The notes under the pieces: model-generated
The model's database searches: none
Told to the model about the DNA's origin: nothing
The model's input: only the letters and a program-made list of their open reading frames with translations
From: Halodesulfovibrio aestuarii DSM 17919 = ATCC 29578
Lineage (GTDB): Bacteria > Desulfobacterota > Desulfovibrionia > Desulfovibrionales > Desulfovibrionaceae
Length of the DNA stretch: 64,000 nt
Direction: 5' to 3'
Assembly: GCF_000384815.1 (NCBI RefSeq)
Contig: NZ_ARQF01000020.1
Coordinates: 558,001-622,000, forward strand
Part shown: positions 12,811-56,157 of the stretch, piece by piece
Layout: each line of letters starts with the position of its first letter
Numbering within the stretch: position 1 is the first letter of the stretch
Made by a program: the position numbers and the translations under genes

Positions 12811-12839
12811 AAAGGCGGTCATTATGACCGCCTTTTTTT
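12811..12839 (+). terminator. Rho-independent terminator of the repressor gene
   Basis: GGCGGTC (12814-12820) pairs perfectly with GACCGCC (12826-12832), followed by seven T's. It separates the repressor from the signalling operon. Confidence 0.92.
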
Positions 12840-13023
12840 GTATTGTCATATAAAAATTTCCCCCCTCCCGCCTAGACAACCCCGTGCATTTATTGCATAT
12901 AAATCAAGATCTTTACTTAGTTATACTTTCATAACTCTGACAACCTGCTGTTTGAAATCTCATACGCCGCATGCGTTTAACTTGGTACGGCACGCTAACA
13001 CGTGCGGCAGAACGGGGAATAAT

Positions 13024-14982
13024 ATGGCCTCTATCAGTATTCTTGTGGTTGATGATGAACGCATTGTGGCACTTGACATAAAGGGCACTCTTGAGACTCT
13101 CGGATACAATGTCTGTGCTGTCGCCAATACTGCTGAAAGCGCGCTAAAAGCGACTGAAAAAAACTCGCCGGATTTAGTCCTGATGGACATCAACCTCAAA
13201 GGTGAAATGGATGGCATTGCTATTGCGCATGTTATCAACGCAAAACATTCCATCCCTGTTGTATTCCTCACCGCATATTCAGACAGAGACACTTTTGATC
13301 GCGCTAAATCTTCCAACCCGTACGGATTCATTCTTAAGCCCTTTGATGCAAGAAAATTACACTCTGCCATCGAAATTGCACTCATTAAACACTCTGAGGA
13401 AGCACGCCTGACAGAAGCACGACACAAGGCTGAACTGGAAAATAGCGCAAAATCCAGTTTTTTTGCAAATATGAGTCATGAAATACGTAATTCTCTCAAC
13501 GGCATTGTCGGCATGACGGACCTTGCTCTTGAAACAGATCTTGACCACGATCAAAAAGAATACATGACAACGGTGCTGGATTCAGCAGAAAATTTACTCG
13601 ATATTTTAAATGATATTCTAGACTTATCCCGTATTGAAGCTCGTCAAATGCCGTTGACTCCGAAACGATTCAATCTTGAAAACCTGATCAGCAAAATTGT
13701 CCGTACCCATACACCGAAGGCGCATAAAAAAAAGCTTACGCTGTCCTATGATATTCCGGCATTTGTTCCCACACTATTAAAAGGCGACCCAACGCGCCTA
13801 TCGCAAATTATTACCAATCTGCTTTCCAACGCCATAAAGTTTACAGAACAAGGCGGTATCTCACTTGAGATCTCCGACCTCGCAACACTCGGTGCATATT
13901 CAGAACAGCAGCATGAACCTGCACCTAAATACCGTATGCTTCTTTTTTCCATTCGCGACACAGGAGTAGGACTCACAGAAGAAGAACAAAATTATATTTT
14001 TGAACCATATAAACAAGTCCTTGCGGAGGGCAAAACGCCTATTCGCGGAACAGGCTTAGGTCTAGCAATTTGCCGTGATCTTGTGGAGCTAATGAACGGA
14101 ACAATCTGGGTACGCAGCAAACCGGGAGCAGGCAGCACATTCCATTTTACAGCCCAGTTTGAACATGGTGAACTTGAAGAGAATCTCTCCAAGCCGGAGA
14201 TGACTCCCGAATTTCCTCCGGGGTTGCATGTCGCCATTGCGGATAACAACGTTGTCGGCCAAAAGCTTCTTCTTGAATTACTCGAAAAAAAAGGATTTAC
14301 ATGCCACGTTACATCAAACGGGGCTGAATTGCTTGAACTATTGGCCTCAGAGCCCATAGACATGGTTGTGACAGAAATAAAACTGCCCTTCCTTACAGGA
14401 CTGGAAGCGATGAGACATATCCGCTCCGGCACCATTCCCGGTACTCCCACAAACCTCCCTATTATTGCGGTCACAGCTTTTGCCCTAAAGGGAGATAAGG
14501 AACGCTTTATTGAAGCAGGCATGGACGGCTATGTCGCAAAACCAATACATACATCTGAATTTTACAGAGAAATCGCAAAAGTACTTCAACCAGAAGAACT
14601 ACTCGCACAACCGGAAAATGAACTTGAAGAAACAGACATGTCCCAGCTGCTGGATGTTGAAGGAACTCTCCTGCGCCTTGAGGAAGACACAGACCTTATC
14701 TGTAGGCTGTACTCTCTCTTTATAGACGAACTTGCAGAACGTCTGTATGGATTAAGACTCTTTCTTCAAGAAAACGCGTACAGCAACACAGCTCTGCATA
14801 GCCAGTCATTTGCAGCTGCTGCATTCAATATCGGTGCAAATAGTCTGGGCAACGCACTCATGCAGATATACACGGCCGCAACGCATAGGGAACAGCCCAC
14901 CGCAGATCAATTGCAAGAGCTTGAAACGCTCAGCATTAAGACCAAAAACGAAATTATGCGCAATATGGAGAAGCTTTCTTAA
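13024..14982 (+). CDS. Hybrid histidine kinase (REC-HisKA-HATPase-REC-Hpt-like)
   Basis: 652 residues from the ATG at 13024, with GGGGA 5 bases upstream. An intact receiver comes first (phospho-Asp D55 in LVLMDINLK). Then come HisKA (H152 in MSHEIRNSLNG), a HATPase with N box (NLLSNAIKF), DTGVGL and GTGLGLAI, a second receiver-like domain, and an Hpt-like helical tail. There is no membrane segment or PAS, so it is cytoplasmic. Oddities: the second receiver has Glu (E451) where the phospho-Asp should be, and the Hpt helix reads QSFAAAAFNIGA, with Gln594 at the usual His position (a His lies two residues earlier). It is the first gene of a three-gene signalling operon. Confidence 0.87.
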   Translation: MASISILVVDDERIVALDIKGTLETLGYNVCAVANTAESALKATEKNSPDLVLMDINLKGEMDGIAIAHVINAKHSIPVVFLTAYSDRDTFDRAKSSNPYGFILKPFDARKLHSAIEIALIKHSEEARLTEARHKAELENSAKSSFFANMSHEIRNSLNGIVGMTDLALETDLDHDQKEYMTTVLDSAENLLDILNDILDLSRIEARQMPLTPKRFNLENLISKIVRTHTPKAHKKKLTLSYDIPAFVPTLLKGDPTRLSQIITNLLSNAIKFTEQGGISLEISDLATLGAYSEQQHEPAPKYRMLLFSIRDTGVGLTEEEQNYIFEPYKQVLAEGKTPIRGTGLGLAICRDLVELMNGTIWVRSKPGAGSTFHFTAQFEHGELEENLSKPEMTPEFPPGLHVAIADNNVVGQKLLLELLEKKGFTCHVTSNGAELLELLASEPIDMVVTEIKLPFLTGLEAMRHIRSGTIPGTPTNLPIIAVTAFALKGDKERFIEAGMDGYVAKPIHTSEFYREIAKVLQPEELLAQPENELEETDMSQLLDVEGTLLRLEEDTDLICRLYSLFIDELAERLYGLRLFLQENAYSNTALHSQSFAAAAFNIGANSLGNALMQIYTAATHREQPTADQLQELETLSIKTKNEIMRNMEKLS

Positions 14983-15005
14983 TATTGCCTTTGTCCGGAG
15001 ACTCC

Positions 15006-16877
15006 ATGGCGCAGCTACTGCCGATCATTACTTCAGTACATTCAACCCATCGGTTACCAGAAGCAGTTTCCACCTTGTTGCGGCAACTTAGTGACACCTG
15101 TTCTTCAGACCAAAGCCTTGACCTTGATTATGTACGTAGTTTTCTGTCATCATCGTTAGGGTGGGAACGCAAAGATGTTCTTCATAAGTTCAAAAAACAA
15201 CTTCTTGAGCCGGAAAATCTGTCCACAATCACTCACCACATTCAATTACAGACGATGGGAAAAGTGAATTCATTCCCCTTATTTTTTCATGATACCTACG
15301 ACCAACAGGTAACAATCCTTGTACACCCACGTCCGCTGCGCCTGTCTGATGGCAGTAAGCAGATAAGCAGCACACTTTCTTTAGGGTCAGACGGGTACCC
15401 CCTCAAAAAACAATCTGATCGTCAACGGCTTAATCTGTTGGCGATTCTGGATAAGCTTCCGGAATTTATAGCATTAGTAACCCCGCAATTTACACTACGG
15501 TACATCAACAAACCTTTTCGGGATCAAGTACAATTAAAAGCAGGTGATTCCTGCTACTATGCGTTCACAGGGGACACAGAAGCAGCCGAAAAACCCTCGC
15601 ATCCATACTTACCGCCGTTTGATGTCTTTGAAACAGGTTCCCCATCTTTTTCTGCATGGAAAAGCCCTTGTTCAGGGCGATCATATCGTTTTCTAAGTTA
15701 TCCATTTACAGATACAGACGGAGAACCGCTCATTCTACTTATGGGCCTTGATATCACCCAGCTTACCCGCTTTCAGGAAAAACTTGCGATTACAGAACGC
15801 CAGTACCACTTAATCACTAACAACCTTTCATTGGGCATCGCGGTTGTGGATGGTCAACGGAACATTACGGCGGCTAACCGTCAATTCCGCAACTGGTTTA
15901 AATTGCAGAATGAATCATACCCTGTCAGCTGTCCTTTTGTCCTTATCGAACAGGATGAAAACGGTGAATGCCTGCTCGACAAAACCACCAGCCTTACTCT
16001 TCAGGATGGTAAAGAACATGAATACGAGTTTTCTACCCCACTAAATGGAGCAGAAATCACTTTTCGGATCACTGCATGTCCTTTACATCAAACCAAACTA
16101 TTTTCATCAGCGATTATTCTTCTGGAAGATATAACCGAAAAGAAAAAGATAGAGCAACGCACTCAGCAGATGCGTAAGCTGGAGGCCATGAGCACTCTCG
16201 CCGCCGGCATTGCACATGAGATTAACCAACCGTTATCGGCTCTGCGTCTTTATGCCAGCGGACTAGATTTATTGGTTGAGCAACGCGGTTCAGTTCCGAC
16301 CAAGATTTTGCAGGAACGTCTGGGACTAATTCTACGTGAGACCGGCACCATCGAAGACATCATCACACACATGCGATCACTTGTGCGTCATCAAGGGGCA
16401 TTTCCGCTTGAACGGTCCGATGTAAACTATGCAGTCGAGCAAGCAGTCAGCCTACTGCAAAACAAGCTGGCCACCCGGAACATCAACGTACACAATCAGC
16501 TGCAAAATGAACTTCCGCCAGCACTTGCGCTCCCTATTCAACTAGAGCAGATCGTAATCAACATCATGATGAATGCTGCTCATGCTCTTGAACATACCGA
16601 AGGACAGCGGTGTATTACTATTACAACCTGCGAAACCAATGACCACTACATTCAGCTCTGCATTGAGGATAACGGTCCCGGTTTACAAGGACTTGGTGAT
16701 AAAATATTTGATCCTTTCTTTACCACAAAAGAATCAGGAAAGAGCATGGGGCTTGGGCTTGCCCTCGTACACACCTTTGTTACCAGCTGGGAGGGTACCA
16801 TTACTGCTGACTCCCCAAGAGCAGACAACAAAGGCACACTAATTAAAATTCTACTTCCACAAGCTCCGACGACTTAA
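15006..16877 (+). CDS. PAS sensor histidine kinase (NtrB-like)
   Basis: 623 residues. The ATG at 15006 has GGAG 5 bases upstream; an in-frame TTG at 14985 is less likely. The N-terminal ~150 residues are not recognised; two PAS-like regions (about 155-265 and 270-385) precede HisKA with H404 in GIAHEINQPLSALRLYASG. The HATPase domain has NIMMNAAHAL, EDNGPGL and MGLGLALVHT. No transmembrane helices, so it senses an intracellular signal. It lies 23 bases after the hybrid kinase and 9 bases before the sigma54 response regulator, its likely partner. Confidence 0.9.
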   Translation: MAQLLPIITSVHSTHRLPEAVSTLLRQLSDTCSSDQSLDLDYVRSFLSSSLGWERKDVLHKFKKQLLEPENLSTITHHIQLQTMGKVNSFPLFFHDTYDQQVTILVHPRPLRLSDGSKQISSTLSLGSDGYPLKKQSDRQRLNLLAILDKLPEFIALVTPQFTLRYINKPFRDQVQLKAGDSCYYAFTGDTEAAEKPSHPYLPPFDVFETGSPSFSAWKSPCSGRSYRFLSYPFTDTDGEPLILLMGLDITQLTRFQEKLAITERQYHLITNNLSLGIAVVDGQRNITAANRQFRNWFKLQNESYPVSCPFVLIEQDENGECLLDKTTSLTLQDGKEHEYEFSTPLNGAEITFRITACPLHQTKLFSSAIILLEDITEKKKIEQRTQQMRKLEAMSTLAAGIAHEINQPLSALRLYASGLDLLVEQRGSVPTKILQERLGLILRETGTIEDIITHMRSLVRHQGAFPLERSDVNYAVEQAVSLLQNKLATRNINVHNQLQNELPPALALPIQLEQIVINIMMNAAHALEHTEGQRCITITTCETNDHYIQLCIEDNGPGLQGLGDKIFDPFFTTKESGKSMGLGLALVHTFVTSWEGTITADSPRADNKGTLIKILLPQAPTT

Positions 16878-16886
16878 GAGATCTGT

Positions 16887-18356
16887 ATGCGAATACTCAT
16901 TGTTGACGACAATTCTACCAGCCTGCAAAGTCTAAGTGTTGTACTTACAGACTTAGGACACCAGCCAAGTACATTCAGCGATCCGCACGCAGCACTCAAC
17001 CATGCGAAGGAAAGCTATTACCCTCTTATTATTACAGATATAAAAATGCCGACACTGGACGGCCTTTCCCTGCTTGCAGAACTGAAGGCGTGTGAAACAA
17101 GCAAACGCAGTGATGTAATCATCATCACCGGTCATGGAGACATGGAAACAGCTATTACGGCGCTGCGTAACGGTGCTTACGACTACTTAAATAAACCAAT
17201 TAATGCCCGTGAGCTTGCCGCTGCTGTTGAGCGCAGTGCTGAACATCAAACCCTGCTTTTTGAAAATACTGACCTGAAACAGAATATGAAGGAACGCGTT
17301 GCAGAGGCTCAAGAGTCTTTGCAGGGAGATTTAGAAAAGATGCGTTCCCAGCTTCGTAATGTCTCGGGCATTGGAGAAATAATTTCGGGTTCACCCCGAA
17401 TGCAGGAAATAATCCGCGATGCGACCATTTTTCATCATGAACCGGACGTCCCTGTCCTCATTGAAGGGGAAACAGGCACAGGTAAAGAAGTTATCGCGCG
17501 TCTGGTACATCATGGAGAAACCCATTGTGACACTCCGTTTGTTGCCCTCAACTGCTCTGCTATTGCTGAATCTCTTTTTGAAAGCGAACTGTTCGGATAT
17601 GAAGCAGGGGCCTACACCGGATCACGCACTGGCGGCTCTGCCGGCAAGCTTGAGTTAGCAGGGAACGGGACACTTTTTTTGGATGAAATTGCCGAGATGC
17701 CCCTGCACTTACAGCCAAAGCTACTTCGAGTACTGGAAGAAAGAACCTTCTACCGTGTCGGTGGATTGCAAAAAAAGCACTTCACTGCCCGCATTATCGG
17801 AGCCGGTAACAAGAACCTTGAATTAATGGTGGAAGAAGGTCTGTTCCGTCGCGATTTGTATCACAGGCTTACAGTAGGGCATCTACGCCTTCCCCCGTTA
17901 CGTGAACGCCAAAATGACATCGCCAAAATGGCATCGTTATTTCTGCGAAAACAGGTAAAACGGAAAGGAAAACGATTTTCATCAATCGCTCCCGAAACCC
18001 TTACGATGCTCAAAGAGCATTCGTGGCCTGGGAACGTCCGCGAATTAGAAAACATCATTGAGCGCGCCGTACTTATCCACGACGACATAATACTTCGCCC
18101 TGAGCATATTGAATTTACCACTCTTTCTTATTCAACAAATAGAGTTCAGGCAGCAGCTCCGCGACTCGACACAATGCCATTGCCTTCAATTGATATTGCA
18201 TCATCCACTATTGTTTTACCGGATGAGCCTTTCAAACTGGAAGACGTGACACAATCTGTTATCCGCAAGGCACTAAGCAAGTTTGATGGTAACAAAACAA
18301 AGGCTGCAGCGTATCTTGGTATTTCCCGATATGCACTTTATCGCAAAATATCCTAA
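16887..18356 (+). CDS. Sigma54-dependent response regulator (NtrC family)
   Basis: 489 residues: receiver (1-120, phospho-Asp D51 in LIITDIKMP), an AAA+ sigma54-activation domain (about 165-395) with Walker A GETGTGKE and Walker B GTLFLDEIAEM, and a Fis-type helix-turn-helix at the C-terminus (NKTKAAAYLGISRYALYRKI). The sigma54-contacting loop reads GAYTGS instead of the canonical GAFTGA. Phe to Tyr is tolerated in relatives; the final Ser is unusual. It is the last gene of the operon. Three tandem dyads and a -24/-12 promoter lie just downstream, so its first target is probably the adjacent non-coding RNA. Confidence 0.92.
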   Translation: MRILIVDDNSTSLQSLSVVLTDLGHQPSTFSDPHAALNHAKESYYPLIITDIKMPTLDGLSLLAELKACETSKRSDVIIITGHGDMETAITALRNGAYDYLNKPINARELAAAVERSAEHQTLLFENTDLKQNMKERVAEAQESLQGDLEKMRSQLRNVSGIGEIISGSPRMQEIIRDATIFHHEPDVPVLIEGETGTGKEVIARLVHHGETHCDTPFVALNCSAIAESLFESELFGYEAGAYTGSRTGGSAGKLELAGNGTLFLDEIAEMPLHLQPKLLRVLEERTFYRVGGLQKKHFTARIIGAGNKNLELMVEEGLFRRDLYHRLTVGHLRLPPLRERQNDIAKMASLFLRKQVKRKGKRFSSIAPETLTMLKEHSWPGNVRELENIIERAVLIHDDIILRPEHIEFTTLSYSTNRVQAAAPRLDTMPLPSIDIASSTIVLPDEPFKLEDVTQSVIRKALSKFDGNKTKAAAYLGISRYALYRKIS

Positions 18357-18357
18357 C

Positions 18358-18402
18358 GTGCGGTTCCGCACGTCGTGCGAAATCGCACGTGCGTTTTCGC
18401 AC
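18358..18402. promoter_or_regulatory. Three tandem GTGCG-N4-CGCAC dyads: likely activator sites and terminator
   Basis: Three copies of a 14-bp dyad with identical arms and different tetramers stand at 18358-18371 (GTTC), 18375-18388 (AAAT) and 18389-18402 (TTTT). The last is followed by T7, so in RNA it can terminate the kinase-regulator operon. On DNA the array lies about 130-170 bp upstream of the predicted sigma54 start, the classic place for enhancer sites of an NtrC-type dimer. I infer a double role. Confidence 0.7.
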
Positions 18403-18502
18403 TTTTTTTCTTCTTTTAATAAAATTCTAGAATAGCCCAAAATAATAAAAACATAACATACTGTTTTAAAGATCTTTTTTTTATAAAGCAGTTCTTAACA
18501 TT

Positions 18503-18520
18503 TTGGCATGATAGATGCTA
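18503..18520 (+). promoter_or_regulatory. Sigma54 (-24/-12) promoter
   Basis: The sequence TTGGCATGATAGATGCTA has GG at 18505-18506 and GC at 18517-18518 with exactly 10 bases between, matching the TGGCAC-N5-TTGC consensus at both invariant dinucleotides. Predicted transcription start is about 18530. It is preceded by AT-rich DNA suitable for looping and lies just downstream of a gene for a sigma54 activator. Confidence 0.8.
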
Positions 18521-18529
18521 TAAGTCTGA

Positions 18530-18728
18530 CTGACGGTTGGATTGCCAGCGATTAGGCGTCCCCCCCCCCAACGTACCAACCGTCGTGCTTAGGCTCTGAA
18601 TACGGTGCGAACTATAACTGACTTCCCCCCCCTACAGTTATGGTTCTATTTCCGAGGCGTAGATTCAGACCAACCTATCTTTGCCCCCTGTAATCACCCC
18701 CCCCCCGATTACAGGGGGCCATTTTTTG
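18530..18728 (+). ncRNA. Candidate sigma54-driven regulatory RNA with three C-tract loops
   Basis: No plausible coding frame. Stem 1: GACGGTTGG (18532-18540) with CCAACCGTC (18576-18584), a 35-nt loop containing C10 (18560-18569). Stem 2: GAACTATAACTG (18609-18620) with CAGTTATGGTTC (18635-18646), 12 pairs including one G-U, and a 14-nt loop with C8 (18625-18632). Stem 3: GCCCCCTGTAATC (18683-18695) with GATTACAGGGGGC (18707-18719), 13 perfect pairs, a loop of A plus C10, then T6. The predicted start falls 2 bases before stem 1. Exposed C-tracts could pair with G-rich Shine-Dalgarno regions, as C-rich loops do in several known sRNAs, or bind a protein. Size is about 200 nt; function is inferred only. 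Confidence 0.75.
18683..18727 (+). terminator. Rho-independent terminator of the C-tract RNA
   Basis: A 13-bp perfect stem, an 11-nt loop of A plus ten C's, and six T's (18722-18727). It is the third stem-loop of the candidate RNA. Confidence 0.85.
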
Positions 18729-18789
18729 GACACAACAAAGCGCTCAACACCAATGGCGAGAGTCACATTCAGCCGGCTGTTCAATAAAT

Positions 18790-19593
18790 TTAAGTTCCGT
18801 AGAGGCTACAAACGTCTGCTTTAACCACTTCGGAAATATCAAGGCGGGATTCAATGGCAGCGGTAAGCTGACCCATTGCATCAAAAACAGGGGAAACACT
18901 CACAAGCCATAGCGCAGCCGTACCATCAGGGTACATCCCTTCTTCAGTTACGACCACAGGTTCCTGCGAAATAAAGACCTTAGCGACAGGGCAATTACCA
19001 CCGGGAAATTCACGGGTGCAGACATGTCTACAGGAACGCCCTTCTGCAATAGCAAATGTTTCCATAAATGCATTGTTAGCATGAACAATGGTGAAAGAAG
19101 TATCAACAACTGACACATACCCCGGCATACCCTTAAATAACGATTCAAAATAGGAACGACGTTCTGTCGCATTTTGCATTCGCCTGCTAAAGACTTCACC
19201 AGAGCGAACAAGCGCCATTGTCAACGCATCAAGCTCAAACTCTTTAGGGATCTCTGTAGGAAGAGGAGCACTTCCAAGCTCTGTGGCGGTATATGTAAGA
19301 GCCTCAAGAGGACGACACACCATTCCTCTACATAACTTGTTAAACAAGTAATAAAAGCAAGGAACGGTAATAGCGGCACAACAAGCCATGAGCCATAGAA
19401 TGTCCATAGGCGTGAGTGGAGAGCTGGCAGCAAGCGTAAGCAGAGCACAAAGCACTACCAGACCGGAACAACTAAAAAATATAGCTGCGGCAACGGCAAA
19501 CTTTGTTGCTATAGAAAATTTGGCATTACGAAATAATAACAAGAAGTACCCCCCTGTGTGTTCGTTGCGGCACAGTAGCACACAGCGGTTCAT
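18790..19593 (-). CDS. Membrane PAS-domain protein, cysteine-containing
   Basis: About 267 residues from the ATG at 19593 (an in-frame start 12 bases upstream is possible). Two transmembrane helices (roughly 28-58 and 66-86), a short linker, then a PAS domain (about 140-255) starting at YFESLFKGMPGYVSVVDTSF. The PAS carries CRHVCTREFPGGNCP, three cysteines that could bind metal or sense redox state. There is no output domain, so it may be a receptor fragment or work through a partner. It converges on the C-tract RNA and lies beside the sigma54 signalling genes, but a functional link is not shown. Confidence 0.6.
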   Translation of the reverse strand: MNRCVLLCRNEHTGGYFLLLFRNAKFSIATKFAVAAAIFFSCSGLVVLCALLTLAASSPLTPMDILWLMACCAAITVPCFYYLFNKLCRGMVCRPLEALTYTATELGSAPLPTEIPKEFELDALTMALVRSGEVFSRRMQNATERRSYFESLFKGMPGYVSVVDTSFTIVHANNAFMETFAIAEGRSCRHVCTREFPGGNCPVAKVFISQEPVVVTEEGMYPDGTAALWLVSVSPVFDAMGQLTAAIESRLDISEVVKADVCSLYGT

Positions 19594-19633
19594 GTTCAAA
19601 ATCATTATTATAGTACTGTAATACCAGTGTATT

Positions 19634-56130: not shown

Positions 56131-56157
56131 CCCTTAGCATACCCCCCCCAAAAAAAA

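Follow-up and report, generated by a model that had tools for sequence, protein, structure and literature searches.

A predicted sigma-54-driven small RNA with three C-tract stem-loops in Halodesulfovibrio aestuarii and a candidate target in G-tracts at adhesin ribosome-binding sites

Downstream of a kinase/regulator cassette in Halodesulfovibrio aestuarii DSM 17919 lies a predicted small RNA gene of ~199 nt (18530..18728, + strand, in positions of the 64,000-nucleotide stretch analysed, hereafter the window), which folds well below shuffled sequences, covaries and has homologues in relatives. Conservation, covariation and synteny back the original prediction of a sigma-54-driven RNA with C-tract stem-loops, and the gene position and neighbouring regulator of this RNA make it probably a homologue of Dv_sRNA2 of D. 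vulgaris. We consider it likely, from comparative evidence, that this sigma-54-dependent, Dv_sRNA2-type RNA acts by Hfq-independent C:G pairing at the ribosome-binding sites (RBSs) of giant LapA-like adhesins, which would lower adhesin synthesis and surface attachment. Both the candidate target, the G-tracts at the adhesin RBSs, and a wider RNA family with three to five C-tracts, present as tandem copies in one genus, are new here.

Reading the RNA letter by letter confirmed three stems (9, 12 and 13 bp) that carry runs of ten, eight and ten Cs, all on the + strand. Stem I (18532-18540/18576-18584, span 18532..18584) holds a C10 tract at 18560-18569, the inner stem II (18609-18620/18635-18646) a C8 loop at 18625-18632, and stem III (18683-18695/18707-18719) a C10 loop at 18697-18706; the tracts are read directly from the letters, and all three stems are backed by letters, fold and covariation. 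The description of the C-tracts as loops holds in that all three stems display them, but the first C10 is not a plain apical loop, as it sits 3′ of a GCC/GGC hairpin (18544-18546/18555-18557, from the fold) inside stem I. Stem II, in a refinement of the first description, is enclosed by an outer helix (18595-18601/18663-18669, from the fold), giving a domain II at 18595..18669 that is backed by fold and covariation. A linker, ACCAACCUAUCUU (18669..18682, +), nearly invariant within the genus, leads to stem III, which together with U6 at 18722-18727 forms the terminator (element 18683..18728) that had been proposed and that the letters bear out. The folding energy is -73.5 kcal/mol vs -53.0 (sd 4.3) in shuffles (z -4.7), and 0 of 200 shuffles were as low. 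Tracts of eight or more Cs are scarce in this genome, with 42 distinct ones on both strands of 3.5 Mb, the RNA's three included, and ~3e-5 triplets within 150 nt expected, so three per 150 nt are not accidental. The statement that the region has no coding frame was nearly right: a 60-aa GTG frame (18605-18787) overlaps the RNA, it runs across the stems and terminator, and no support for coding was found. Two other C-tract places were observed. At one, G000:C15:11632-11705 (L038 1500-1574), a C11 is separated by 66 nt from a C8 of the same strand; such pairs within 100 nt are expected ~0.025 times in the genome, and the gene just before them has a QueD-type look. The other is a C8 on the + strand at 56142-56149 of the window, the minus strand of which (GGGGGGGGTATG) is a G-tract just before an ATG.

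The -24/-12 sigma-54 promoter (TTGGCAT-N5-ATGCT, GG-N10-GC; 18503..18519, +) is read in the letters and recurs in relatives. As sigma-54 elements lie 11-12 nt from the start, transcription is predicted to begin near 18530, 2 nt 5′ of stem I, in agreement with the original prediction. Three TGCGNNNNCGCA palindromes (18359-18370, 18376-18387 and 18390-18401, unstranded and together 18359..18401), a motif that recurs in relatives, are probable activator binding sites, and the last of them with its T-run (18390-18415) may double as an intrinsic terminator of the regulator gene. Downstream of the regulator this motif was found in 17 of 23 loci with a C-tract RNA vs 1 of 32 other loci read (12 of the 32 being from g20), and a promoter-like site lay 121-213 nt past the regulator stop in 22 of the 23 C-tract-RNA loci, one of them weak. 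These promoters were near-perfect (TGGCAC-N5-TTGCT) in genera g43 and g9, good in g1 and g16, lesser in g15 and weak in one g11 genome; in the second g11 genome no promoter-like site was found downstream of the regulator.

The cassette itself, all on the + strand, opens with a hybrid histidine kinase with receiver domains (12838..14982; Pfam HisKA, HATPase_c and two Response_reg stretches), a homologue of which occupies the same place in 12 of 14 regions compared, some of them partial. It is followed by a PAS histidine kinase (14985..16877; PAS, HisKA, HATPase_c), presumed to be the regulator's partner, which adjoins the regulator in relatives too, and by an NtrC-type sigma-54-activating response regulator (16887..18356; Response_reg, Sigma54_activat, HTH_8) with a GAYTGS loop. 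The regulator was the RNA's upstream neighbour in 12 of the 14 regions examined by simple ORF calling; of the two remaining regions, L086 contained a partial regulator only and L087, where ORF calling chose wrong frames, has it directly before the RNA according to the regulator search. GAYTGS was present in the window regulator and in the orthologues read in g1, g43, g15, g16 and g11, which are the genera with long C-tracts, and the regulators of g9, g20, g18, g3 and g55 carried GAFTGS, with one GSFTGS. Genes downstream of the RNA differ between the groups. In group A of the genus the RNA gene is faced by a PAS-domain protein (18790-19605, - strand), which may be part of the signalling system and in group B is 4-5 kb off.

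By DNA search, five further genomes of the genus gave near copies of the RNA and the other four gave diverged copies. Of 348 genomes of the order searched with a covariance model built from ten sequences of the genus, 15 had the RNA, these being 10/10 of the genus and five of g43, and two extra g43 copies were found by position (L104, L106). In the alignment of these 17 sequences, which was fitted to the model and so favours structure, 94.0% of cells were paired and 23 of 43 pairs had changed on both sides; the covariation score was 0.381 vs 0.163 in shuffles, 0 of 500 shuffles scored as high, and the signal was lost on sliding the partners. A sequence-only alignment of the first ten already had 18 of 43 pairs changed on both sides. 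Loss of stem covariation in relatives had been set beforehand as refuting the proposal, and so had absence of the C-tracts from close relatives: covariation was retained, and so were three C-tracts of 6-10 Cs each in 17/17 rows. Outside the C-tracts, UGCCAGCGAUNAGGCGU, UCUGAAUAC and GGCGU...UUCAGACCAACC are invariant across the ten sequences of the genus, and in g43 a fourth C-tract stands where the linker ACCAACC was.

The covariance search reached two genera only, and more diverged RNAs were sought by position, downstream of regulator orthologues of at least 53% identity; the regulator search had matched 56 of the 348 genomes at E <= 1e-115. Multi-C-tract RNAs were found at this position in g15 (C10, C10, C10 and C7) and in g16 and g11 (four to five tracts); in the last two a short reading frame, seen by eye, lies between promoter and C-tracts, so the RNA there could belong to a longer transcript. 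In g9 two or three tandem copies have tracts of C5-C6, with three copies at L105 and two at L108, each behind a near-perfect sigma-54 promoter of its own. In g20, where loops were inspected by eye in 8 of 12 loci, six loci have a same-strand promoter-like site followed by C/U-rich loops (five CCUCCUC and one CCUCCCCC), and two more have such a site and loops on the opposite strand. No multi-C-tract RNA was seen within ~1 kb downstream of the regulator in g18, g3, g55 or the relatives of 43-46% identity, and a genome-wide search for the promoter-plus-C6 pattern was swamped by chance matches in high-GC genomes. Another TGGCACGCGGGTTGCT promoter with a C6 within 30 nt was observed away from the studied regulator at G110:C24:166072 and G111:C1:649801 (g43).

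The closest published counterpart is in D. vulgaris, where the target of DVU0679 is Dv_sRNA2, an expressed sRNA downstream of the regulator's own gene, of which it is written that "its function is unknown" (PMC3333781); for D. vulgaris Miyazaki and strain G20 orthologues have been predicted (PMC3333781, PMC4641369), and the sigma-54 regulome lists DVU0679 with a GAYTGS loop and "ncRNA downstream" (PMC4641369). As the window regulator, judged on sequence, likewise has GAYTGS and a sigma-54-promoter sRNA gene directly downstream, we infer from regulator loop and gene position that the window RNA is probably a Dv_sRNA2 homologue, although the passages of the published account that treat this RNA give no C-tracts, structure or target. 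A full-text literature search of main texts found no description of Dv_sRNA2 C-tracts or targets, and "C-rich" is not mentioned in the available passages of an O. alaskensis ncRNA survey (PMC11124144).

With this probable homologue, and with sX13 and the 6C RNAs, the original remark that the pattern belongs to no recognised named family was too strong. The Xanthomonas RNA sX13 combines three stems and three C-rich loops and represses, independently of Hfq, mRNAs with G-rich motifs near the start (PMC3771888); the window RNA also has several stems with C-rich loops, and the adhesin RBS G-tracts described below are co-conserved with it. The likeness proposed is one of mechanism. sX13 is 115 nt long with 4C/4C/5C loops and has other targets, and the passages on it describe no sigma-54 link. 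The actinobacterial 6C RNA (RF01066) also has C-rich stem-loops (PMC9569102). On that model the window RNA scores 23.6 bits vs a gathering threshold of 47; Rfam at gathering found one tRNA only in the 64-kb window, and weak look-alike matches to sau-6072 and 6C were rejected as below threshold. The 6C RNA is reported by Mai in 2019 to bind mRNAs via its C-rich loops without chaperones. In the CbrAB-CrcZ system of Pseudomonadaceae, an sRNA just downstream of a kinase and NtrC-type regulator is transcribed from a sigma-54 promoter activated by that regulator (PMC8871633), a layout equal to that of the window, but CrcZ binds the Hfq/Crc complex and no Hfq was found in the H. aestuarii genome. GsrN of Caulobacter, as proposed here, places a C-rich loop on a G-rich mRNA-leader site, but with one loop and other targets, and it activates katG (PMC5869019). 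RepG of Helicobacter (HPnc5490) likewise uses a C-rich loop on a G-rich leader site, and differs in its single loop and its regulators and targets. In the LuxO-Qrr system of Vibrio, a sigma-54 regulator adjoins an sRNA present in several copies, which pairs via other sequences. Qrr is moreover Hfq-dependent (PMC3771888), whereas Hfq was not found here.

Among genes read with G7 directly before the start, two families recur across species, a giant adhesin and a dCache sensor. The adhesin has VCBS/cadherin-type repeats, its best large-adhesin model is BapA/Bap/LapF, below cut-off, and of the 12 rows of its N-terminal module 11 have TAAG and one, L336, has TASG, giving it a LapA-type cleavage motif ([T/A/P]AAG in LapA-like adhesins; PMC13090378). 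Its RBS reads atttcccataGGGGGGGaatcATG with small changes, despite protein identity of only 52-73%, and a G-tract of G6-G9 is present in 10/10 genomes of the genus. Five of the six group A adhesin genes had been picked for their G7, and protein homology was the only criterion for those of G001, group B, g9 and g20: G001 has G6, and four group B genomes, whose adhesins are only 28-37% identical to the query, have G9, G7, G7 and G8. Profile searches gave G5-G8 in all ten genes read (of 12 places) in g9 and G5-G7 in all nine read (of 15 places) in g20; in all, 62 adhesin places were found and 50 read, the unread 12 including two of the g9 places and six of those in g20.

Taking the genus, g9 and g20 together, and setting aside g43 (12 of 13 places read) and g55 (5 genes read), G>=5 stood at the adhesin RBS in 29 of 30 genes vs 2 of 43 from lineages in which no RNA was found, a label that means a negative covariance search and no close regulator orthologue, both of which miss diverged RNAs; g18, counted among these, has the regulator and no RNA was seen. 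The 43, mostly with plain AGGAG-type sites, comprise 14 control adhesins in g5, g2, f4 and g18, none with G5, and 29 with a start, from 30 loci read, in further lineages (G5 in 2/29). Background genes had G>=5 near the start in 15 of 312 across six RNA-bearing genomes (two G6, no G7), or 11 of 261 without g43, a generous estimate, as the best of up to three starts was chosen for each of 44-64 genes taken from parts of each genome. For genes not picked for a G-tract the contrast was 24/25 vs 2/43 (Fisher, p 5e-15, relatedness ignored), and with g43 added 31/42 vs 2/43 (p 1e-11); these p-values are overstated because the species are related. The original guess that the C-rich loops bind G-rich RBS regions thus gains specific comparative support from the adhesin G-tracts, which make the adhesin RBSs a candidate target.

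The RNA's own loop 2 (UUCCCCCCCC) is complementary to its own adhesin RBS across 9 nt, and in groups A and B cognate loop 2 complementarity was 8-11 nt (the 11 nt including stem bases) vs 7-9 nt with the other group's loops, although in G003 the cognate loop brought no gain over the other group's. By duplex energies calculated with flanks, adhesins were well separated from background genes in the genus (1/44, 0/48 and 2/55 background genes binding as well), partly in g9 (0-11/64) and poorly elsewhere, the measure not being discriminating for two of the four g20 cases (21, 37, 0 and 8 of 50) or in g43 (25, 10 and 49 of 51). A GGGGAAG motif was also observed upstream of the G-tract in adhesin leaders L262, L325-L328 and L330, in several of them in a hairpin loop (CUUGGGGAAG), and is possibly a second docking place for a C-loop. 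The dCache-domain sensor gene, with an RBS G7 that recurs in four genomes of the genus (G000:C19:173592 = L263, L304, L311 and L316), ranks as a weaker second candidate target because it was picked for its G7.

Several results run against adhesin targeting. Across six genomes G7 upstream of ATG occurred 111 times vs 118 for the reversed pattern, and with no genome-wide enrichment either the targets are few or the pairing is not general. Genus g43 has the RNA, yet its adhesin RBSs are G4 in six genes, G6 in two and plain in four, so that G>=5 in 2/12 is not above background (p 0.32). In g15, g16 and g11 C-tract RNAs are present and a profile search of five genomes returned no LapA-like adhesin match, and g55 has a G5 adhesin RBS in at least 2 of 5 genes read, though no C-tract RNA was found next to the regulator there. 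A second adhesin of G007 (L336) has the RBS GGGGAGG.

The C-tracts could instead serve a broader purpose, pairing as a general anti-Shine-Dalgarno RNA with many purine-rich RBSs or competing with 16S rRNA, the adhesins being the strongest of many targets. The g20 loops, UCCUCCUCCC, are a full anti-Shine-Dalgarno match, 15 of 312 background genes likewise have G>=5, and the dCache sensor keeps its RBS G7 in four genomes. The genus, however, has pure C8-C10, a poor fit to GGAGG, and not CCUCC; we regard this broader role as an unlikely reading. Slightly less probable in our estimate is a protein sponge, with the C-tracts sequestering a protein that binds C or pyrimidines (Rho, S1, KH or cold-shock), each loop being one site and the stems serving for display only. 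Poly(C) is a classic Rho ligand, and three to five similar sites per RNA are typical of sponges; such a role would leave the adhesin RBS G-tracts of the same genomes unexplained and sits poorly with loops that are C8, C5 or CCUCCUCC depending on the genus, and Hfq, the sole candidate protein searched for, was not found. The sponge nevertheless remains a main rival, beside the broader anti-Shine-Dalgarno role, because the kinase-regulator-sigma-54-sRNA layout is shared with CbrAB-CrcZ, where CrcZ titrates Hfq/Crc (PMC8871633).

Two further readings seem to us more remote. The adhesin G-tracts might vary translation by slipped-strand changes in length, with the RNA unrelated and directed at other targets. 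Homopolymeric G-tracts are classic contingency loci, and tract length does differ between species, from G6 to G9, but plain AGGAG-type sites prevail in the adhesins of lineages with no RNA found (G5 in 2/43), and all ten adhesins read in g9, with differing N-termini, have G5-G8 where the RNA loops are C5-C6; we hold phase variation to be improbable. The last reading, in which the element is not trans-acting at all and its C-tracts, arising from assembly or mutational drift, sit in a structured leader or 3′ element, is very improbable given the covariation, the retained C-tracts, the RNA's own promoter and the expression of the D. vulgaris RNA, even though in g16 and g11 a short frame, seen by eye, precedes the C-tracts, which perhaps belong there to the 3′ part of a longer transcript.

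The preferred reading, pairing at adhesin RBSs, would operate as follows. As anatomy, conservation and the findings in D. vulgaris suggest, the cassette's kinases and regulator would sense a signal, upon which the phosphorylated NtrC-type regulator would bind the palindromes at 18359-18401 and activate the promoter at 18503-18519. The folded RNA, its structure shown by covariation, would present three C-tracts, and these, to judge by co-conservation, would pair without Hfq to RBS G-tracts, above all those of the LapA-like giant adhesins. From the position of the tracts and the sX13 precedent, pairing would block ribosome entry, giving less adhesin and less surface attachment, with activation also possible. 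An Hfq model found no Hfq in 59 of 59 genomes of the order (the same model matches 5 of 14 control genomes), which is in keeping with chaperone-free C:G pairing. More broadly, one RNA with several C-tracts might control the whole LapA-like adhesin class through a homopolymer "address code", each adhesin having its RBS G-tract, and RNA copies, tract length and paralogues co-evolving without Hfq; we give this extension an even chance. One g9 genome carries three RNA genes in tandem, their loops being C5-C6, and 9/9 of its adhesins read (of eleven places) have G5-G8.

For an RNA known since 2011 as "function unknown", a target now becomes testable. If the pairing is real, it would exemplify homopolymer C:G regulation in an order that yielded no Hfq (0/59 genomes), with the target-side mark kept across genera. 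The two adhesin transcripts of D. vulgaris did not change significantly in biofilm transcriptomes (PMC5646257), which leaves room for post-transcriptional control; antibodies against the D. vulgaris proteins DVU1012 and DVU1545 have been raised (PMC5646257). The RNA would then be a candidate control layer for the surface attachment of sulfate reducers, and so for corrosion and biofilms, beside the known c-di-GMP/protease release of LapA-like adhesins.
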